Below are positions 15,496-58,478 of a stretch of DNA of 64,000 bases, piece by piece; position 1 is the stretch's first letter; each line of letters opens with the position of its first letter. Location: positions 62,001 through 126,000 of the forward strand of contig WHVA01000104.1 in the NCBI GenBank assembly GCA_015179125.1, in the 5' to 3' direction. Position numbers and translations under genes: made by a program. Source of the DNA: Gautieria morchelliformis (lineage: Eukaryota; Basidiomycota; Agaricomycetes; Gomphales; Gomphaceae). A model generated the notes under the pieces. That model was not told where the DNA came from. It did no database searches and was given only the letters and a program-made list of their open reading frames with translations.

Positions 15496-16320
15496 ATCTG
15501 TTTGGGTTCGGCATGGATGGTCGACCATGGCAGACAGCTTGTATGCGGTAGGGATGGTCTAGGCCTTGACCGGTGTCGTATTCACCCCCGCTGTTTGGGG
15601 CAACATGTCATCTCTGGATAGACCTGCGACGTGCATGGACGTGCACATGTCCGGATGAACTTGTGACTTGTGTCGATATGCGATTCAGATGACCCCCCGA
15701 CCCGTTAGGGTCTGACATGGACGGTCAAGCGTTATGCTGGTATCTGTCCAAGAGAGGGAAGAGTTGTTTCCGTGAGCGTAGGCTCAGGTGTTTTCCGTGA
15801 GCGAAGGCTCAGGTGTTTCTGTGAGTGAAGGCTCAGGCATTTCCGTGAGCATAGGCTCAGGCTCAGGTGTTTCCGCGAGCGAAGGCTCAGGTGTTTTTCG
15901 TAAGCAAAGACTCAGGCTGTTTCCGTGAGAGAGGGCTCAGGTATTTCCGTGAGAGAGGGCTCAGGTGCTTCCGTGAGAGAGGGCTCAGGTGTTTTCCGTG
16001 AGCGAAGGCTCAGGCGTTTCCGTGAGCGAAGGCTCAGGTGATTCCATGAGCGAAGGCTCAGGTGTATCCGTGAGCGAAGGCTCAGGCCTGTCTGTGAGTG
16101 AAGGCTCAGGTGCTTCCGTGAGTGAAGGCTCAGGTGCTTCCATGAGCGAAGGCTCAGGTGCTTCCGTGAGCGAAGGCTCAGGTGCTTCCTTGAGCGTAGG
16201 CTCAGGTGTTTCTGTGAATGAATGCTCAGGTGTTTCCGCGAGCAAATGCTCAGGTATTTCTGTGAGTGAATGCTCAGTTCGGACGACTACCCGACCTGTT
16301 GGGGTTCGGCATGGATAGTC
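15496..16320. repeat. Dispersed 30-bp repeat bracketing a minisatellite
   Basis: Three related copies of a motif centred on GGGTTCGGCATGGATGGTCG occur near 15506, 15706 and 16300. A second, longer motif of about 75 bp (from CCCGCTGT..GGGGCAACATGTC to GCATGGACGTGCACATG) recurs near 15590, 16445 and 16797. These repeats frame the 24-bp minisatellite and suggest that this interval grew by local duplication. Confidence 0.55.
15770..16285. repeat. Minisatellite, 24-bp unit, about 21 copies
   Basis: The unit GGTGTTTCCGTGAGCGAAGG followed by CTCA repeats head to tail with a few length variants in the first third. Being 24 bases long it keeps frames open on both strands, reading SVSEGSGV on plus and EPSLTEAP on minus. 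No start, splice sites or flanking coding sequence support a protein. Confidence 0.85.
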
Positions 16321-23931: not shown

Positions 23932-23942
23932 CTAGGTGGGTA

Positions 23943-23959
23943 CCCGCGCTTCGCGCGGG
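23943..23959 (-). other. Helitron 3' terminal hairpin
   Basis: CCCGCGC TTC GCGCGGG pairs perfectly. It sits seven bases inside the terminal CTAG, where Helitrons carry the hairpin thought to signal the end of rolling-circle transfer. Confidence 0.9.
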
Positions 23960-24080
23960 GGTGTAGGTCAAACGCATCGGTAAGGTCAAGTGCATTGGGG
24001 AAAATAAAAGTAACCAATTTGCATCAAGTAAAATCAAGTAACACACATAAACCATATCAAGAGAAGTGGATATAATAAAA

Positions 24081-26714
24081 TCAAGGAGCTCTAAGTAATA
24101 CATCTTTATATACAATGTTGGTTGTGTCCAAACCCTCCTCAAGCAAGACCTTCACTCTGTTCCAATTGGTCCCTCTTGATACACCAACATACAACTGACC
24201 ATGTCCAAACACTGGATATCTCAGGTCCAGCCCAACCGTACCCAAAGACTGTCCCTGAGACTTGTTGATAGTCATTGCAAATGCCAAACGCACTGGAAAC
24301 TGCCTCCTTTGCAGCACAAATGGCAACTCTCCCTCTGATGGCTTAATGATGATCCTGGGGATGAAAGCAATATTGCCTGCACATGGACCTGAGATGATCC
24401 TGACCTCCAACACTCTAATGCTTATCCTCACCAACCGCAACCTTGTCCCATTGCATAGTCCTTGCTTCTGATCCAAATTGCGCAACAGCATCAGAGGCAC
24501 TCCAGGCTTGACTTCCAAGCGAGCAGGAGGAAGACTGCCCATCTCTATGGAATTCAGATACTCCACAGGATACCGATCTGCATCATCGGATTCTTCAATG
24601 GAATTTGCGCAGTGCAAGACCTGAGCATCACCTGGAAACTCCCTAAACACCATGGAATTGATCTCATTGACCTCAGTGTTTCTGGCACAGAGGATGGCAC
24701 GCTCCAAAAAGTAATTGTCCTGGGCAGGGACATGATTGCCAATGCCAGGGTATATTTCCTGGATCAGATCTTCAATTCCAGGGCCACAAACCATGTGAGG
24801 AGGGAGTGAGAACGTATGATCTAGTGGGAGATCCTTTCCCTGGCCCACATTCTGCAGCCATTCTGCAAACCTGGCTCTGTCAGGGTCGTTTCTCACCCGC
24901 ATGTTCTCTGTCAGATGGAGGACATTGATCTTTGGCCACAGATATGACTTCTGAAGGGTAGCTCCCACGATATCCTCCTTGGAGCCTTTAGGGACGATTG
25001 GGAGAGTCTGCTGAAAGTCACCTCCAAAGGCGACTGTGATGCCACCAAAGGGTCTATCAGGCTGGTCAAGGAAATCCCTCAGTGTCCTGTCAATGGCCTC
25101 TATGGCATGGCGATGCTGCATTGCAGCCTCATCCCAGATGAGGAGACTGGCCTGTCTCAGCATGTCAGCCTTGTCAGAGTTCTTTTTGATGGAGGAGAAA
25201 GAGCGCTCATGGACAGGAATGGGAATTCCAAGCATGCTATGAGAGGTTGTACCCTTAGTGAGGATAAGTGCAGCCATTGCAGATGAGGCTACTGCAATCA
25301 CAATGAGGCTCTCCGCTCTACAGGAGTGGATTAGAGTGTTCCATGTGAATGATTTCCCGGCGCCACCTGAGCCAGTGACAAAAAACATTTGTCCATCAGG
25401 TTTCCCATGAGCATCTCTGGTCAGTGCCGACCGTAATATCTGATCATGCGTGGACCTTTGCCCCTCATTCAGCCTGGGAACCTCCTCATCAGCTATGTTC
25501 CTCTCTTCAACACGGTCATAGTCCCTCTGCTCAGCTATGAACCTGTTTCCAATGAGGGCCTCCCACTCGCCTGCCACCCGAGGCATATCATCAAAGCTGC
25601 TCAAGGACATTCCACCCTGCTGGAGGATTTTTTCCAAGAGAAAGAGGCCAAAATCATAAACCTGATCATCCTGTGGATCCTGCATACCATGTCTGATTTG
25701 GAGCTGATGTCTGAGATCATCACATATGTGCTCCCTGAAGGCATCCCATAGTCTGCCGGGGCCCGATGGATTGCAATGGCCAAGGATGGTGGCAAAGAGA
25801 TGTCTGAGCTGAGCACCTGTTTTCATAGCACTGGCTTCCTGGAGACACAACCTCAACTCCTGATCATCATCCAGAAGTCCCCTTGCACGACAGGCCTCCT
25901 TGTAAGTAGCATATTGTATGCCATCCACCGACCTAAGCTCCTCAAAGGATCTAGCCCCCTTGACCACTGTGAGGAGAGTCCGCACAAAAAATCTCTCTCC
26001 TGATCTAGGGTTTGCAAAGTGAAGGTGACCAATGCTATAACCTCCTTGGCGTGGTGTCCATACCTTGTCCTGTGAGTGCCAGGTAAAATGCTCAGGAAAC
26101 TCCACATAGAGCAGATCACGTGCTTCAGGGTAGATATCATTGGCCTCAAAGTAAGCCATGAGCGGTGTCTTTTTTGCCTCAGCCCTTTCCAGGATGTTGT
26201 CCACATCCTGGTCAGGATCAAAGATGATTGTGTGGTGGTCCTTTTCATGGACTGGCAGTGCCATGACTGCAGGCACCTGGGTGTGGATTTCCCGCTCCAG
26301 CAACCTCCAACAGGCCTCATGAGCACTGACATAGCGAGCGTCCAGGTACTGCTTAATTTCATCCTGGGTGCGACCAAACTCCATGGTGGTCCGATCATGG
26401 CCCTTGTAGAGATACTTGTGGATATACTTGATACACCTCACATTGATGGTGAGTTCAGGGTTGATGTGACACCAGAATTTGAGCAAGAGCAGGGCAGAGT
26501 ATGGCACAACCCATCTGTTGTCCAGCATGTCACCTCTGACATTGTGCAGCCTTCCATCATTGCGACGACGATATTTTGGATATCCATCCTCATTCAGACT
26601 GGTTTCCTCACAGAATGGCTTTGGGAAGTTTTTCTTGCACTTGCCATTTTCCATGCAGGGTGCGTTTGGTTTCATTTGTCCACAGGGACCATGTGTCATC
26701 AGCTCACAGACCAA
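24081..26714 (-). CDS. Helitron helicase (Pif1 family) with C-terminal part of Rep
   Basis: Unwinds DNA during rolling-circle transposition. The open frame is 877 codons, uninterrupted. Near residue 100 the Rep tyrosine region KYIHKYLYKGHD carries the catalytic Tyr. The helicase follows: Walker A GSGGAGKS at about 450, Walker B LIWDEAAM at about 525, motif III FGGDFQQTLP at about 565, then NEINSMVFREFPGD and the motif V/VI text TINKSQGQSLGTVGLDL and YVGVSRGTN near 815-850. The true start is not here: the frame joins upstream Rep coding sequence in another frame at about 26700. All helicase motifs look functional, so the element may have been active until recently. Confidence 0.9.
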   Translation of the reverse strand: MVCELMTHGPCGQMKPNAPCMENGKCKKNFPKPFCEETSLNEDGYPKYRRRNDGRLHNVRGDMLDNRWVVPYSALLLLKFWCHINPELTINVRCIKYIHKYLYKGHDRTTMEFGRTQDEIKQYLDARYVSAHEACWRLLEREIHTQVPAVMALPVHEKDHHTIIFDPDQDVDNILERAEAKKTPLMAYFEANDIYPEARDLLYVEFPEHFTWHSQDKVWTPRQGGYSIGHLHFANPRSGERFFVRTLLTVVKGARSFEELRSVDGIQYATYKEACRARGLLDDDQELRLCLQEASAMKTGAQLRHLFATILGHCNPSGPGRLWDAFREHICDDLRHQLQIRHGMQDPQDDQVYDFGLFLLEKILQQGGMSLSSFDDMPRVAGEWEALIGNRFIAEQRDYDRVEERNIADEEVPRLNEGQRSTHDQILRSALTRDAHGKPDGQMFFVTGSGGAGKSFTWNTLIHSCRAESLIVIAVASSAMAALILTKGTTSHSMLGIPIPVHERSFSSIKKNSDKADMLRQASLLIWDEAAMQHRHAIEAIDRTLRDFLDQPDRPFGGITVAFGGDFQQTLPIVPKGSKEDIVGATLQKSYLWPKINVLHLTENMRVRNDPDRARFAEWLQNVGQGKDLPLDHTFSLPPHMVCGPGIEDLIQEIYPGIGNHVPAQDNYFLERAILCARNTEVNEINSMVFREFPGDAQVLHCANSIEESDDADRYPVEYLNSIEMGSLPPARLEVKPGVPLMLLRNLDQKQGLCNGTRLRLVRISIRVLEVRIISGPCAGNIAFIPRIIIKPSEGELPFVLQRRQFPVRLAFAMTINKSQGQSLGTVGLDLRYPVFGHGQLYVGVSRGTNWNRVKVLLEEGLDTTNIVYKDVLLRAP

Positions 26715-27049
26715 CCGGTAGAGGACAGGATGGTCTCTGGATCAGGGAACTCTGCCGAAATCATTGAATCCACCTCATGTGGATGTCTGATCTTGGAATC
26801 TCGTTCAAACCAGATAAGAATATGCATGTGTGGGAGTCCCCTTTTCTGGAATTCAATGGTGTGGACGCGAGCGACGGTTTCCCCAAAAATCTTTTCCTTG
26901 ACGATCAAGTCAATGAGGTATTTCTTTTTGAGCTGGAACACCCGCGACACCAGGTCAGGCCTGTCCTGAGGAGTTTGTCCAGGCAACAATGCATCCAATA
27001 CCTCCTGCCAGTTGGGATTGGCAGTCATGGTAATAAAGAGATCTGCCAC
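26699..27049 (-). CDS. Helitron Rep core with HUH motif
   Basis: This frame holds the middle of Rep: ADLFITMTANPNWQEVL and then GLPHMHILIW, whose His-Met-His is the metal-binding HUH motif of the nicking domain. It overlaps the upstream and downstream frames by a few codons each, so a single protein has been split by two frame changes. The upstream change coincides with a run of seven G at 27106-27112 (minus strand), a place prone to true slippage or assembly error. Confidence 0.85.
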   Translation of the reverse strand: MADLFITMTANPNWQEVLDALLPGQTPQDRPDLVSRVFQLKKKYLIDLIVKEKIFGETVARVHTIEFQKRGLPHMHILIWFERDSKIRHPHEVDSMISAEFPDPETILSSTGWSVS

Positions 27050-29478
27050 ACCATGCTTCCTTGAAATGGCCAGAGAGTTCTGCAGGTTTCCTGCATGTCC
27101 CGTGTCCCCCCCTGAAATGTGGCAGGCAGAATGGATCTTGCGCCCAAGTTGTTTGGATCTCTGTCATTGTCATTGCGATGAAAGGCATCCATCATCTGGT
27201 TATACATCTCAGCACGGAGAGTGTGTTGATTTGTCCTGATCCACCACAGCCTGCTTTGCTCTGCAGCGGCCCAAGAGTCTACAATGTACTGCTGGAATAA
27301 TTTGCCAGCGCGCAGGAGTGTTGTAGGTTCTTCTGTTCTCTGGAAGAGACAATAGGAATGGAACTGAATTTGAGTGACACGCCCACTTCGCTCACGCCCG
27401 TCTGGTAATTGGCGATAGCGAATACCAGGTTGCCACCCCAACTCTCCCCTGGGAAAGAGCAAGACATAGTGAAGAGAGGCATAGTTTGGATTCATATCGG
27501 ATACCCTTTTAAAACGTCCACCTTTGAGCTGGACAATAATATCCCTAGGTTCAGGGATGATGCCATCTCCAGGAAGAACCACCGCAATCTCATCCGCAGT
27601 AGGGATATTATACCTCCTAGGATCCCTGTGTTCCCTGTACGTGAGCCTAGCCTGGATCTCACCATTCTGTCCCTGAGCTCTGAGCCTCTCGGCCGCTTGT
27701 CTATATATGGGAACATGAGGATTGCATAAGAGGAGCATTTCCTGCAAGTCTCCCATGATAGTTGGAGACAGACCTGGGTTACGGGTGTTCCTCTGTGCCA
27801 AAGCCAATGCTGGATCATATATATAAAGTTGGGCATACTGTATCCGCCTCCCAGGGTTAGGGATGAGAGAGCCATGAATATGATACAGTTCGCCCTGCAG
27901 CTTGAGGACATATGGACCACGACCCTCCCGAAGCAAATCTAGATCAAACTCAGCTCCCAAGGAAGTGAATGCAAATGCAGCATTGTACTGCCTGATGTTC
28001 TGGCGAAACTGTTTGGCCTCAGGGTCCTGGCCCTCTAAGAGCCGTCTCAATGGCTGAGGGAGCACTGGCAGCTCTGGAAGCTGCACCTTTCCTTCCATAC
28101 AGCAATCACCAAATCTGGGCCGCCGATTTGAGGATCTCTGCAGGCGTTCTGCCATCCAGTGTAATGCTCCACAGTCAGGGCAGGGAATAACCATGGGACC
28201 CAGATCATGACGCTGCACATCTGCCTCAATTATTCTAGAGCGACCAAGTGGAACAGGAGGAGGAGGTCGCTGAGGACGCTGCCGAGGTACAGGGAGTGGC
28301 TGAGGAGGCCGAGGAGGTGCAGGGAGTGGCTGAAGAGGCTGTGGAGGTGCAGGGAGTGGCTGAGGAGGCTGAGGAGGAGCAGGGAGTGGCTGAGGAGGCT
28401 GAGGAGGAGCAGGGAGTGGCTGAGGAGGCTGAGGAGGTGCAGGCAGTCGCTGAAGAGGCCGCAGAAGTGCAGGGAGTAGCCGAGGCATTGGTCTTACTGC
28501 ATTAGCCTGAGCCCGCAATGCTGCGACCGCTGCAGAACCTACTACAGGAGGTCTAGGAGCTGGTTGTAAAGGTGCCTGCCTGGGTCTTCCCAAGGGCTGT
28601 GCTGGGATAGGCTGTATACCAGCAGTGTGAGCATGCAAATCTGCCACCGCTGTAGAGCCTACTGCCAAATGTCCAATTCCAGCCGCCTGAGCACGCAACT
28701 GAGCAATTGCTGCAGAACCTACTACAGGAGGTCTAGGAGCTGGTTGTAAAGGTGCCTGCCTGTGTCTTCCCAAGGGCTGTGCTGGGATAGGCTGTAACCC
28801 AGCAGCATGAGCACGCAAATCTGCCACCGCTGTAGAGCCTACTACAGGTTGTCCAATTCCAGCCGCCTGAGCACGCAACTGAGCAATTGCTGCAGAACCT
28901 GCTACAGGAGCTGGCTGTCCAGCGTCAGGCCTATTTCTTCTGAGGGGCTGTAATCGTGGGATAGCTGCTAACTGTGCACGAAGGGCTGCCACCTGCTCTC
29001 CAGGACTGGGATCAGGTGGATATGATGGCCCCGCAAGCGTAGGAGGGTGCAATGGAGCTGGCTGTACAGGGTCTGGCCTATGTCCTCTCAGGGGCTGCCA
29101 TGGTGTGATAACTGCTAACTGAGCACGAAGGGCTGCCACCTGCTCTGTAGGACTGGGATCAGGAGCAAGTGATGGCGCCGCAGGCATTGGTGGACGTGAT
29201 GGCCCTGCCACAGGTTGTTGAAAAGGATCGGCTGCACTGCTTCTAGAAGGAGGGTGAGGGATGGCAAAGGCGGTGGTGGAGGGGGTGGCTGGTTCTGAGC
29301 TCCAATATGCGCTCTCCGACGCGCTCTCCGATGACTGGGTGGTGTCATTACCTCCTGCCCCTCCCTCGCACTTTGACGCACCTGCCAACGGATGCTCTCT
29401 GGGGTAGATGGATCCTGAGAAATGCAGGCATAAGAGTAGAGAGAGAATAAAGATATCAATATCAGACTTACATCGCAA
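27025..29478 (-). CDS. Helitron Rep N-terminal region with long Pro/Ala-rich head
   Basis: Contains the Helitron-like N-terminal domain: a Cys cluster (CPDCGALHWMAER, then FGDCCMEGKV), YNAAFAFTSLGAEFD, GELYHIHGSL, QLYIYDPALA and PGDG/RDIIVQLKGG followed by LHYVLLFPRGELGW. The N-terminal third is repetitive: a run of QPLPAPPQPP units (28250-28480) and two near-identical modules of about 60 residues built on GSAAIAQLRAQAAGIG and QPIPAQPLGR. Near 29400-29478 the frame crosses what looks like an intron (GTAAGT at 29471, acceptor at about 29410), so the annotated start is not the protein's start. Confidence 0.8.
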   Translation of the reverse strand: MRCKSDIDIFILSLLLCLHFSGSIYPREHPLAGASKCEGGAGGNDTTQSSESASESAYWSSEPATPSTTAFAIPHPPSRSSAADPFQQPVAGPSRPPMPAAPSLAPDPSPTEQVAALRAQLAVITPWQPLRGHRPDPVQPAPLHPPTLAGPSYPPDPSPGEQVAALRAQLAAIPRLQPLRRNRPDAGQPAPVAGSAAIAQLRAQAAGIGQPVVGSTAVADLRAHAAGLQPIPAQPLGRHRQAPLQPAPRPPVVGSAAIAQLRAQAAGIGHLAVGSTAVADLHAHTAGIQPIPAQPLGRPRQAPLQPAPRPPVVGSAAVAALRAQANAVRPMPRLLPALLRPLQRLPAPPQPPQPLPAPPQPPQPLPAPPQPPQPLPAPPQPLQPLPAPPRPPQPLPVPRQRPQRPPPPVPLGRSRIIEADVQRHDLGPMVIPCPDCGALHWMAERLQRSSNRRPRFGDCCMEGKVQLPELPVLPQPLRRLLEGQDPEAKQFRQNIRQYNAAFAFTSLGAEFDLDLLREGRGPYVLKLQGELYHIHGSLIPNPGRRIQYAQLYIYDPALALAQRNTRNPGLSPTIMGDLQEMLLLCNPHVPIYRQAAERLRAQGQNGEIQARLTYREHRDPRRYNIPTADEIAVVLPGDGIIPEPRDIIVQLKGGRFKRVSDMNPNYASLHYVLLFPRGELGWQPGIRYRQLPDGRERSGRVTQIQFHSYCLFQRTEEPTTLLRAGKLFQQYIVDSWAAAEQSRLWWIRTNQHTLRAEMYNQMMDAFHRNDNDRDPNNLGARSILPATFQGGTRDMQETCRTLWPFQGSMVWQISLLP

Positions 29479-29581
29479 GCAGAATAGGCAAACTCAGGGA
29501 AAACAGGCTGTGCGGGTATCTCAGACGGATTGCAAAGCCACTGATCCTAATATAAATACTGCAAACAGCAGATACAGTTAC

Positions 29582-32010
29582 AAAAACTTACCAGAAAGGG
29601 GATAATACCCAGGTAGGGTATGCAGTAGTGACAGGACAAATGCACTGAAAAGTGCCTACAAATGCCAAAAAAGCAAAAAGTTATAGCAAATAACAACATT
29701 AATAAGCATCAAGAAAAGGCAGATACAATACCATAAACACTCACCAGAAACAGCCAGGTAGCAGTGCAGCAGTGAAGGACAAATGTCACTTGAAAGTGCC
29801 TAAAAAAAGCCAAAAAAGCGAAATTATGGCAAAAAGAAGATAATAAGCATCAAGAAAAGGCAGTACAATGCCATAACACTCACCAGAAACAGCCAGGTAG
29901 CAAGTGCAGCAGTGACAGAAAGAATGTCACTTGAAAAGTGCCTAAAAAAGCCAAAAAAGCGAAATTATGGCAAATAAGAAGATAATAAGCATCAAGAAAA
30001 GGCAGGTACAATGCATACACTCACCAGAAACAGCCAATAGCAGGTGCAGCAGTGACAGGACAAATATCACTTGAAAGTGCCTAAAAAAAGCCAAAAAAGC
30101 GAAATTATGCAAAAAGAAATAATAAGCATCAAGAAAAGGCAGGTACAATAAACACTCACCAGAAACAGCCAGGTAGCAGGTGCAGCAGTGACAGGACAAA
30201 ATTCACTTGAAAGTGCCTAAAAAAAGCCAAAAAAGCGAAATTATGCAAAAAAAGAAATAATAGCATCAAGAAAAGGCAGGTACAATACATACACTCACCA
30301 GAAACAGCCAGTAGCAGGTGCAGCAGTGACAGGACAAATATCACTTGAAAAGTGCTAAAAAAAGCCAAAAAAGCGAAATTATAGCAAAAAAAGAACATAA
30401 TAAGCATCAAGAAAAGGCAGGTACAATACCATACACTCACCAGAAACAGCCAGGTAGCAGTGCAGCATGACAGGACAAATGTCACTTGAAAAGTGCCTAA
30501 AAAAGCCAAAAAAAGCGAAATTATGCAAATAAGAAGATAATAAGCATCAAGAAAAGGCAGGACAATAGCAAGCACTCACCAGAAACAGCCAGATAGCAGG
30601 TGCAGCAGTGACAGGACAAATGAGCACTTGAGCAGTGCCTAAAAAAAGCCAAAAAAGCGAAATTATAGCAAAAAAAAACATAAATAAGCATCAAGAAAAG
30701 GCAGAACAATAGCATAACACTCACCAGAAACAGCCAGATAGCAGGTGCAGCAGTGGACAGGACAAATATCACTTGAGCAGTGCCTAAAAAAAGCCAAAAA
30801 AGCGAAATTATAGCAAAAAAGAACATAATAAGCATCAAGAAAAGGCAGGTACAATACCATAACACTCACCAGAAACAGCCAGGTAGCAGGTGCAGCAGTG
30901 ACAGGACAAATGTCACTTGAAAAGTGCATAAAAAAAGCCAAAAAAGCGAAATTATGGCAAATAAGAAGATAATAAGCATCAAGAAAAGGCAGGTACAATG
31001 CCATAATACTCACCAGAAACAGCCAGGTAGCAAGTGCAGCAGTGACAGGACAAATGTCACTTGAAAAGTGCATAAAAAAAGCCAAAAAAGCGAAATTATG
31101 GCAAATAAGAAGATAATAAGCATCAAGAAAAGGCAGGTACAATGCCATAATACTCACCAGAAACAGCCAGGTAGCAAGTGCAGCAGTGACAGGACAAATG
31201 TCACTTGAAAAGTGCATAAAAAAAGCCAAAAAAGCGAAATTATGGCAAATAAGAAGATAATAAGCATCAAGAAAAGGCAGGTACAATGCCATAATACTCA
31301 CCAGAAACAGCCAGGTAGCAAGTGCAGCAGTGACAGGACAAATGTCACTTGAAAAGTGCATAAAAAAAGCCAAAAAAGCGAAATTATGGCAAATAAGAAG
31401 ATAATAAGCATCAAGAAAAGGCAGGTACAATAGCATAGCACTCACCAGAAACAGCCAGATAGCAGGTGCAGCAGTGACAGGACAAATGTCACTTGAGCAG
31501 TGCCTAAAAAAAGCCAAAAAAGCGAAATTATAGCAAAAAGAACATAATAAGCATCAAGAAAAGGCAGGGTACAATAGCATAGCACTCCACCAGAAACAGC
31601 CAGATAGCAGGTGCAGCAGTGACAGGACAAATATCACTTGAGCAGTGCCTAAAAAAAGCCAAAAAAGCGAAATTATAGCAAAAAAGAACATAATAAGCAT
31701 CAAGAAAAGGCAGGTACAATACCATAACACTCACCAGAAACAGCCAGGTAGCAGGTGCAGCAATGACAGGACAAATGTCACTTGAACAGTGCCTAAAAAA
31801 AGCCAAAAAAAGCGAAATTATAGCAAAAAAGAACATAATAAGCATCAAGAAAAGGCAGGTACAATAGCATAGCACTCACCAGAAACAGTCAGATAGCAGG
31901 TGCAGCAGTGACAGGACAATATCACTTGAAAAGTCCCTAAAAAAGCCAAAAAAGCGAAATTATAAATAACAAACATAAAAAAAGGCAGTTTCAGTAGCAT
32001 CAAACTCACC
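29582..32010 (-). repeat. Tandem array of about 17 exon/intron-like modules in the Helitron 5' region
   Basis: Units of 135-146 bp repeat head to tail; the four units from 31011 to 31443 are spaced exactly 144 bp and are nearly identical. On the Helitron coding strand each unit reads polypyrimidine tract, AG, a 58-base block beginning GCACTTTTCAAGTGACA and ending GGCTGTTTCTG, then GTGAGT. Most units thus carry a complete acceptor, exon and donor. In the four central units the acceptor AG is changed to ATG. Within each block AGTGACA and TGTCACT can pair. The array sits between the inferred transposon 5' end and the Rep reading frame, and further donor/acceptor pairs connect it to the coding region. 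Confidence 0.9.
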
Positions 32011-32295
32011 AGAAAGAACTTAGATAGGAAGTTAATAGAAGAGATGCAGGTGGTGGGAGGGATGGGATGGGATGGGATGATGGTAGAAGGAGGGCAGAGG
32101 GGACCGGCTGCGCAGTGTCTGCCAGTCACCCAGCACTGTACCGGCAAGCACCAGAGACCGGTCTGGGCTGGGCCTGGGCCTAGGGCTCGCGGCTGCGCCG
32201 CTCGCTCCGCTGACCTAACTTTTACGTAATATTATTTGTAATATTAATTGTCAGCCTCGACGCCCACAACCCACCGAGCGCGTTTAACTCTTAGA

Positions 32296-57543: not shown

Positions 57544-58478
57544 TTAGCTCCATGACTTGAACCTCCAGCTCTTCAGCATTCTTCTAGCACACTTCCACAG
57601 GCCCTGATTCTGATAGGTTGAGGCAAGGTTGCCCATGGTGATCAGGGTGTCAGGATGCTCCTCACCAAGGACCCTCATCCTTGCCTCCATGACTTGAACC
57701 CCCAGCTCTTCAGCATCATTCCACTGGCCCAAGTCATGATAGGTTGAGGCAGGGCTGCCCATGGCCATCAGGGTGTCAGGATGCTCCTCACCAAGGACCC
57801 TCTTCCTTGCCTCCATGACATGAACCTCCAGCTCTTCAGCATCCTTCCACTGGCCCTGATTCAAATATGTTGAGGCAACATTGGCCATGGCGATTAGGGT
57901 GTGAGGATGCTCCTCACCAAGGATCCTCTTCCTTGCCTCCATGACTTGAACCCCAGCGCTTCAGCATCCTTCCACTTGCCTGAATTCTGATAGGTTGAGG
58001 CAGGGCTGCCCATGGCCATCAGGGTGTCAGGATGCTCCTCACCAAGGACTCTCATCCTTGCCTCCATGACTTGAACCCCCAGCTCTTCAGCATCCTTCTG
58101 CCTGCCCAAACTCCAATAGGTTGAGGCAAGGTTGGCCATGGCGGTCAGGGTGTCAGGATGCCCCTCACAAAGGACCCTCTTCCTTGCCTCCATGACTTGA
58201 ACCCCCAGCTCTTCAGCATCCTTCCACCGGCCCAAACTCCAATAGGTCGAGGTGAGGTTGGCCATGGCATTCAGGGTGTGAGGATGCTCCTCACCAAAGA
58301 CCCTCTTCCTTGCCTCCATGACCTTAACCTCTAGCTCTTCAGCATCCTTCCATCTCCCTGCTTCATTGAACACTGTTGCAAATCTTTCTGCCATGTTTGA
58401 CTGTAGATTTTGTATGTAGCTCATTGATATGAGCCAGAAGAGATCTCCTAAATGCATAATCCTCTGTACTATCTTCAT
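57544..58478 (-). repeat. TPR-coding tandem repeat, 126-bp unit, about seven copies
   Basis: Units are highly similar at the DNA level, with blocks like CCATGACTTGAACCCCCAGC recurring every 126 bp on plus. Such similarity indicates recent unequal exchange, typical of NLR sensor repeats. Confidence 0.85.

Follow-up and report, generated by a model that had tools for sequence, protein, structure and literature searches.

Helitrons end on their 3' side in a hairpin followed by CTRR and insert between A and T without a target-site duplication. Near-identical introns scattered among genes are known as introners, and the silencing of transposons in Cryptococcus reportedly follows a stalled-spliceosome model. 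Internal tandem arrays have already been described in Helitrons and Helentrons (PMC12628747), and the locus analyzed in this study resembles these, as far as the accessible text describes them, in that a rolling-circle transposon contains tandem repeats whose number is variable. It also resembles mouse L1, where variable tandem units of several types (the 5'UTR monomers) precede the first ORF (PMC9022269, PMC6454616), and introners and other repeated introns, which occur as near-identical introns in many copies per genome (PMC8469720, PMC7789003). In the basidiomycete Cryptococcus, silencing of transposon RNA may be connected with splicing (PMC6643885). No description of a Helitron with leader exons and introns as repeats was found in the literature searched, a weak negative since that literature lay mostly outside subscription journals.

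The window, a stretch of 64,000 nucleotides from Gautieria morchelliformis contig WHVA01000104.1, carries a Helitron of the family here called A, in which a tandem array sits between the 5'-TC end and Rep (Table 1). Judged from sequence comparison, this array is probably a non-coding exon-intron module that was amplified in tandem, and probably more than once, within a spliced 5' leader of Rep. The initial annotation had recognized the element as a Helitron and had placed the array in front of its Rep gene. Both assignments hold, and the modules between the 5' end and Rep resemble exon plus intron. The element contains a Rep (HUH) nuclease with PF14214 matches of 1.5e-18 and 2.2e-35, a PIF1-like helicase, the 5'-TC, and a 3' hairpin followed by CTAG. 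The exact word TCTAAGAG marks the 5' boundary of the window copy, and 16 of 20 sister loci have it there as well. The base preceding the 5' end is variable (a, g, or t), and many copies directly abut the CTAG of another element. Such head-to-tail Helitrons were seen in L010, L015, L016, L018, L019, L021, L025, and L026, and in the window the family A element is followed across 23932/23931 by a stretch (23931-23798) that is 87% identical to the family C 5' end.

The window copy looks dead because its Rep part is split over two overlapping frames. In the Rep N-terminal region, 30-bp and 180-bp tandem repeats occur at 28269-28910 with a copy number that varies among sisters. Further tandem arrays of the window are located at 15765-16277 (24 bp x 21) and at 57580-58352 (126 bp x 6.1), the latter overlapping an ORF with a repeated protein motif.

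Table 1. Features of the family A Helitron in the window, given in window positions.
Feature	Position	Strand	Basis or remark
Whole Helitron, family A copy	23932..32295	-	5'-TC at 32295 (TCTAAGAGTTAAACGCG); 3' end CTAG at 23932
5' end and presumed first leader exon, until first donor (GT at 32009)	32010..32295	-	
First intron-like block, GTGAGT ... AG	31937..32009	-	Profile
Exon-intron modules, 16 full ones (sister units mostly 58 + 86 nt)	29656..31936	-	TRF and profile
Four consecutive modules with acceptor AT, not AG; late local expansion	30928..31503	-	10/16 such units in L009
Last, variant array exon, donor GTAAGT at its end	29592..29655	-	Profile
Candidate short intron of 45 nt; a preceding CAG could serve as acceptor instead	29547..29591	-	Sequence
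Last leader exon, with AT of the split start codon at its end	29472..29546	-	
Last leader intron of 57 nt, which in sister copies separates AT from G of the Rep start codon	29415..29471	-	
Rep N-terminal part and first part of Helitron_like_N	27025..29414	-	
Remaining Rep nuclease domain (Helitron_like_N), different frame	26699..27163	-	
PIF1-like helicase part	24081..26741	-	PF05970, 6.4e-66
3' terminal hairpin CCCCCGCGCGAAGCGCGGG	23943..23961	-	

TRF placed the tandem array at 29621-31964 with a period of 144, 16.5 copies, and 92% matches, while the profile resolved 16 full units flanked by a first intron and a variant final exon, so that the array of about 17 exon-intron modules reported initially is real, with 17 exon-like copies and units of about 144 bp. 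Most sister units of family A consist of a 58-nt exon-like block and an 86-nt intron-like block, the latter opening with a GTGAGT donor and closing with a pyrimidine tract and YAG. The full sister units are exactly 144 bases long in 121 of 137 cases, and unit length is more variable in the window than elsewhere. The ends of the array coincide with exon boundaries, and more donors are found at 32009 (GT) ahead of the array, at 29591 where it ends, and at 29471 past it. Among the full units of the window, the donor GTRNGT is present in 15/16 and a YAG acceptor in 12/16. The earlier statement that splice signals repeat in almost every unit was therefore slightly generous. The four failed acceptors belong to the introns ending at 31360, 31216, 31072, and 30928, which read TTTTTTTAT as against TTTTTTTAG.

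The genome was searched with the Rep leader and the 5' end, both array-free, and the best 40 of 446 and of 583 candidates were scored, respectively. A 5'-end match was paired with 34 of the 40 leader matches, window included, and the gap between the two lies near 27 + 144n bases in all 34 pairs. This gap deviates by at most 0.03 unit from a whole number in 31 of them and is far from a whole unit in C660 (5.79), C178 (8.91), and the window (16.82). The rounded n is 4, 5, 6, 7, 8, and 9 in six, eight, eight, five, three, and two copies, respectively, and 17 in two, the window and the near-identical C732. Six leader matches had no partner among the 5'-end candidates scored, and the five of them that were checked (all but C489) show array sequence: three have an array match, C413 has a unit match, and the second copy on C640 has units in L011. 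All 20 array loci fetched, from about 40 scored, adjoin the Rep leader of a Helitron. Sister copies retain the array, so the refuting condition set by the initial annotation, sisters without an array, turned out in favor of its reading. Since the best ~40 of 446, 583, 666, 441, 152, and 208 candidates were scored in the DNA searches and 150 of 865 places in the Pfam search, all such counts are lower bounds and biased to close relatives.

Both the donor and the YAG acceptor are kept in 134 of 134 parsed full units from 22 sister loci, a count that leaves out the window and L009 as well as partial first or last units and incomplete profile matches. Acceptor loss was also found in six modules on four other contigs. 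Over 10 kb, L009 (C732) and the window share 97.5% identity, and because this stretch includes flanking sequence outside the 5' end, L009 is an allele or a duplicate of the window locus. Its units have kept the donor in 16/16 and the acceptor in 6/16, the other ten having lost the acceptor AG. As the failures read TTTTTTTAT and the four of the window are consecutive, both long arrays seem to have grown by the copying of a broken-acceptor unit. The array of 17 units is atypically long and expanded late, and the copy that carries it has a frameshifted Rep. The window copy and L009 also differ by many single-base indels, for which real decay and an unpolished assembly are indistinguishable.

To place the last leader intron, the donor-acceptor pair that gives the longest frame was taken. 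For all 12 non-window loci tested, from families A-E, this pair is an intron of 57-58 nt that splits AT|G at a constant position downstream of the array, and a stop lies in frame 6 to 14 codons ahead of the split start. The Rep N-terminus that follows reads MDPSTPE, with the variants MEPSTPE (B), MNPSTPE (C), and MDSSTPE (one E copy), and the acceptor of this intron in B is AAG, not YAG. A start conserved between families as distant in Rep as A and B is the best evidence that the last leader intron is real, as it seems to be, and that Rep begins at the split AT|G. The split start opens 1726 aa in L014 and 22 aa in the window copy, the latter because single bases are missing there that are present in 20/20 aligned sister copies, relative to which the last leader exon of the window is one base short. 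Because Rep seems to start downstream of the array, the array would be 5' untranslated leader and the number of exons should not shift the Rep frame. The frame dial on Rep that had been suggested for the 58-base exons is therefore rejected, and the sister exons, ATG-free in 150 of 150 cases, likewise speak against it.

Among the 16 module exons of the window, one contains an ATG, and all 150 sister module introns do; intron ATGs are present in A and C units and absent from B and D units. One exon each from the four array-bearing families contains 0 ATG and 7 CAT together, where shuffles gave a mean of 2.8 ATG (P(0) = 0.028). The leader as a whole is not AUG-free, since an ATG falls within the presumed first exon of L014, and in L044 two lie between the array and the start.

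Families other than A were obtained by a Pfam search that yielded 865 candidate Rep places, of which the best 150 were scored and seven further loci fetched. These represent family B (L040), family C (L041), family D (L044), and family E (L042 and L045), as well as two relatives of family A (L043 and L046) with 4.5 units each. Arrays between the 5' end and Rep occur in B, C, and D with periods of 150, about 120, and 150, respectively, and no array was found by TRF in either locus of E. The one module parsed per family measures 51 + 99 nt in B, 51 + 68 nt in C, and 57 + 93 nt in D. Module donors are GTGTGT in B (4/4), GTGTGT or GTATGT in C (3/3), and GTGTGT, GTGGGT, or GTGCGT in D (6/6), so that GT..GT is constant across the three families and the middle positions vary. 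Acceptors are intact in 3/3 modules of C and in 4/5 of D, where the failure reads TTTTCAAC, and one B unit in L040 is without the acceptor stretch. In B and D, past the one fetched locus each, the evidence consists of gap lengths, which span 401-1562 bases in 36 paired B copies and 500-1326 bases in 35 paired D copies and cluster roughly 150 apart, less exactly than in A.

Exon similarity between A and B does not exceed that of shuffled sequences (z 0.2), while the introns of the two families are alike (z 4.6), as introns are in all family pairs (z 2.1-8.6). The exons of B and D are related (z 6.9), and the C exon is nearer to those of B and D (z 2.8 and 3.8) than to that of A (z 1.5). Downstream of its array, B retains a sequence that matches the final module plus last exon of A at 73% identity. 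These comparisons suggest that different exons were probably amplified in A and in B/D, in at least two events, or else a single old array may have persisted with diverging exons. The number of separate amplifications is uncertain because the C exon scores closer to B/D than to A.

The Rep region of B is about 51% identical to that of A, the array-bearing families B-D spanning 51-98%, and the Rep regions of D and E are 95-98% identical to A over about 300-330 aa. Three kinds of leader thus stand before Rep regions this close to A: 144-bp modules in L014, 150-bp modules in L044, and none in L042/L045, which is suggestive of leader exchange among Helitrons. Since D and E are near-identical to A in Rep and quite different in their leaders, the leaders appear to be exchanged or rebuilt faster than the protein. 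The 5' ends of mouse L1 are likewise replaced faster than the protein.

The splice signals of the module were compared with dinucleotide shuffles of the unit (the family consensus unit in A). A donor, pyrimidine tract, and YAG were obtained together in 155, 44, 117, and 138 of 5000 shuffles for A, B, C, and D, respectively, and in 0 of 5000 antisense shuffles in each family. Because the module criteria were set after the sequence was seen, and as the families are related and their numbers non-independent, this result is suggestive at most, and the comparison across families provides the stronger support. Putative branch sites are TTGAC in B, CTGAT in C, and, 12 nt upstream of the acceptor, CTGAC in D, while A has only YTNAY sites at least 35 nt from the acceptor and no clean CTRAY. 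The splice sites of family A are not clearly more conserved than the rest of the unit across 121 aligned units; with 52 of 144 positions invariant, this test for selection on splice sites was powerless and was set aside. A period-209 tandem repeat outside the Helitron in L017 (622-1186) carries splice-like words on either strand.

No spliced genomic copies were detected with two junction patterns searched in the genome. The first gave 10 matches, each with 2 mismatches and all of them intron-exon borders (six with a damaged acceptor and four with a valid CAG), and the second gave zero. As no spliced genomic copies are expected without reverse transcription, this outcome is uninformative either way.

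A somewhat unlikely alternative is that the array is a Helitron-borne satellite, produced by recombination or faulty rolling-circle replication, whose splice-like signals have no role in splicing. Satellite-like internal arrays are common in Helitrons and Helentrons (PMC12628747), the window and L009 have expanded units with broken acceptors, family E has no array by TRF, and the splice sites are no more invariant than many other positions. The acceptor losses in B and D, together with the ATG-free introns of these two families, make a spliced leader slightly less likely and a satellite slightly likelier. Against it, both splice sites persist in every parsed sister unit outside the two long arrays, the array ends fall on exon boundaries, and B and D show the same layout with exons unlike those of A. 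The arrays of PMC12628747 are moreover placed in central regions, and exon-intron modules are not mentioned in the accessible part of that account.

It is unlikely that the units act primarily as promoter monomers of the kind found in the mouse L1 5'UTR, with every unit aiding transcription start and the splice signals being secondary. This reading is compatible with splicing and would fit the position and variable number of the units (PMC9022269, PMC6454616) as well as the occurrence of different unit types before nearly identical proteins, as in L1, but it leaves unexplained why a donor and an acceptor occur in each of the four array families and why the exons are ATG-free. An unspliced coding array of 48-aa repeats (144 = 3 x 48) in one open frame is very improbable. 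One frame is indeed open over 296 aa (30663-31553), the sister units are mostly of exact length, and a repeated unit of A or of B leaves one sense frame open. Of the 30 variable sites at a 95% threshold, however, 11, 10, and 9 fall on the three codon positions, an even spread, and repeating the C or the D unit closes every sense frame, which disfavors this candidate.

Under the favored reading of a spliced leader, a transcript would begin near the Helitron 5' end, and removal of the introns would join 58-nt AUG-less exons into the leader. Removal of the last intron would then join AT and G into the Rep start codon. Unequal exchange or replication slippage would change the module number in whole units. 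Most sampled copies hold 4-9 modules, and decaying copies would drift and could expand with broken acceptors. What varies with exon number would then be the length of the leader and the count of its introns, while the Rep frame stays the same. More introns could increase expression, a longer leader could reduce it, or there may be no effect at all.

Transposons need their replication protein while evading silencing. A more far-reaching and doubtful proposal is a splicing rheostat, in which splicing assembles the start codon and strips AUG-containing introns (in A and C), and intron number adjusts how much Rep is made or how well the element escapes silencing. Such a leader would have arisen more than once by the amplification of different exons before nearly the same Rep. 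If this were true, Rep output would be tied to the host splicing machinery through a splice-made start codon and a self-amplifying exon-intron stack. With 4 to 17 introns, the copies would form a natural series in which to study how intron number affects a gene, and exon-intron modules would be seen multiplying in tandem, recently. Should the RNA really be spliced, this would be an unusual link between splicing and transposon activity.

The locus differs from the described Helitrons and Helentrons in that the array lies in the Rep leader of coding copies, ends on exon boundaries, and has a donor and an acceptor per unit (PMC12628747, in its accessible part). Compared with mouse L1, which is a retrotransposon, its units resemble exon-intron modules, whereas L1 monomers are promoters (PMC9022269, PMC6454616). 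In contrast to introners, the introns here multiply in tandem with an exon within one leader and are not scattered among genes (PMC8469720, PMC7789003). The spliceosome-linked silencing of Cryptococcus, as far as the accessible text goes, involves no module array (PMC6643885).
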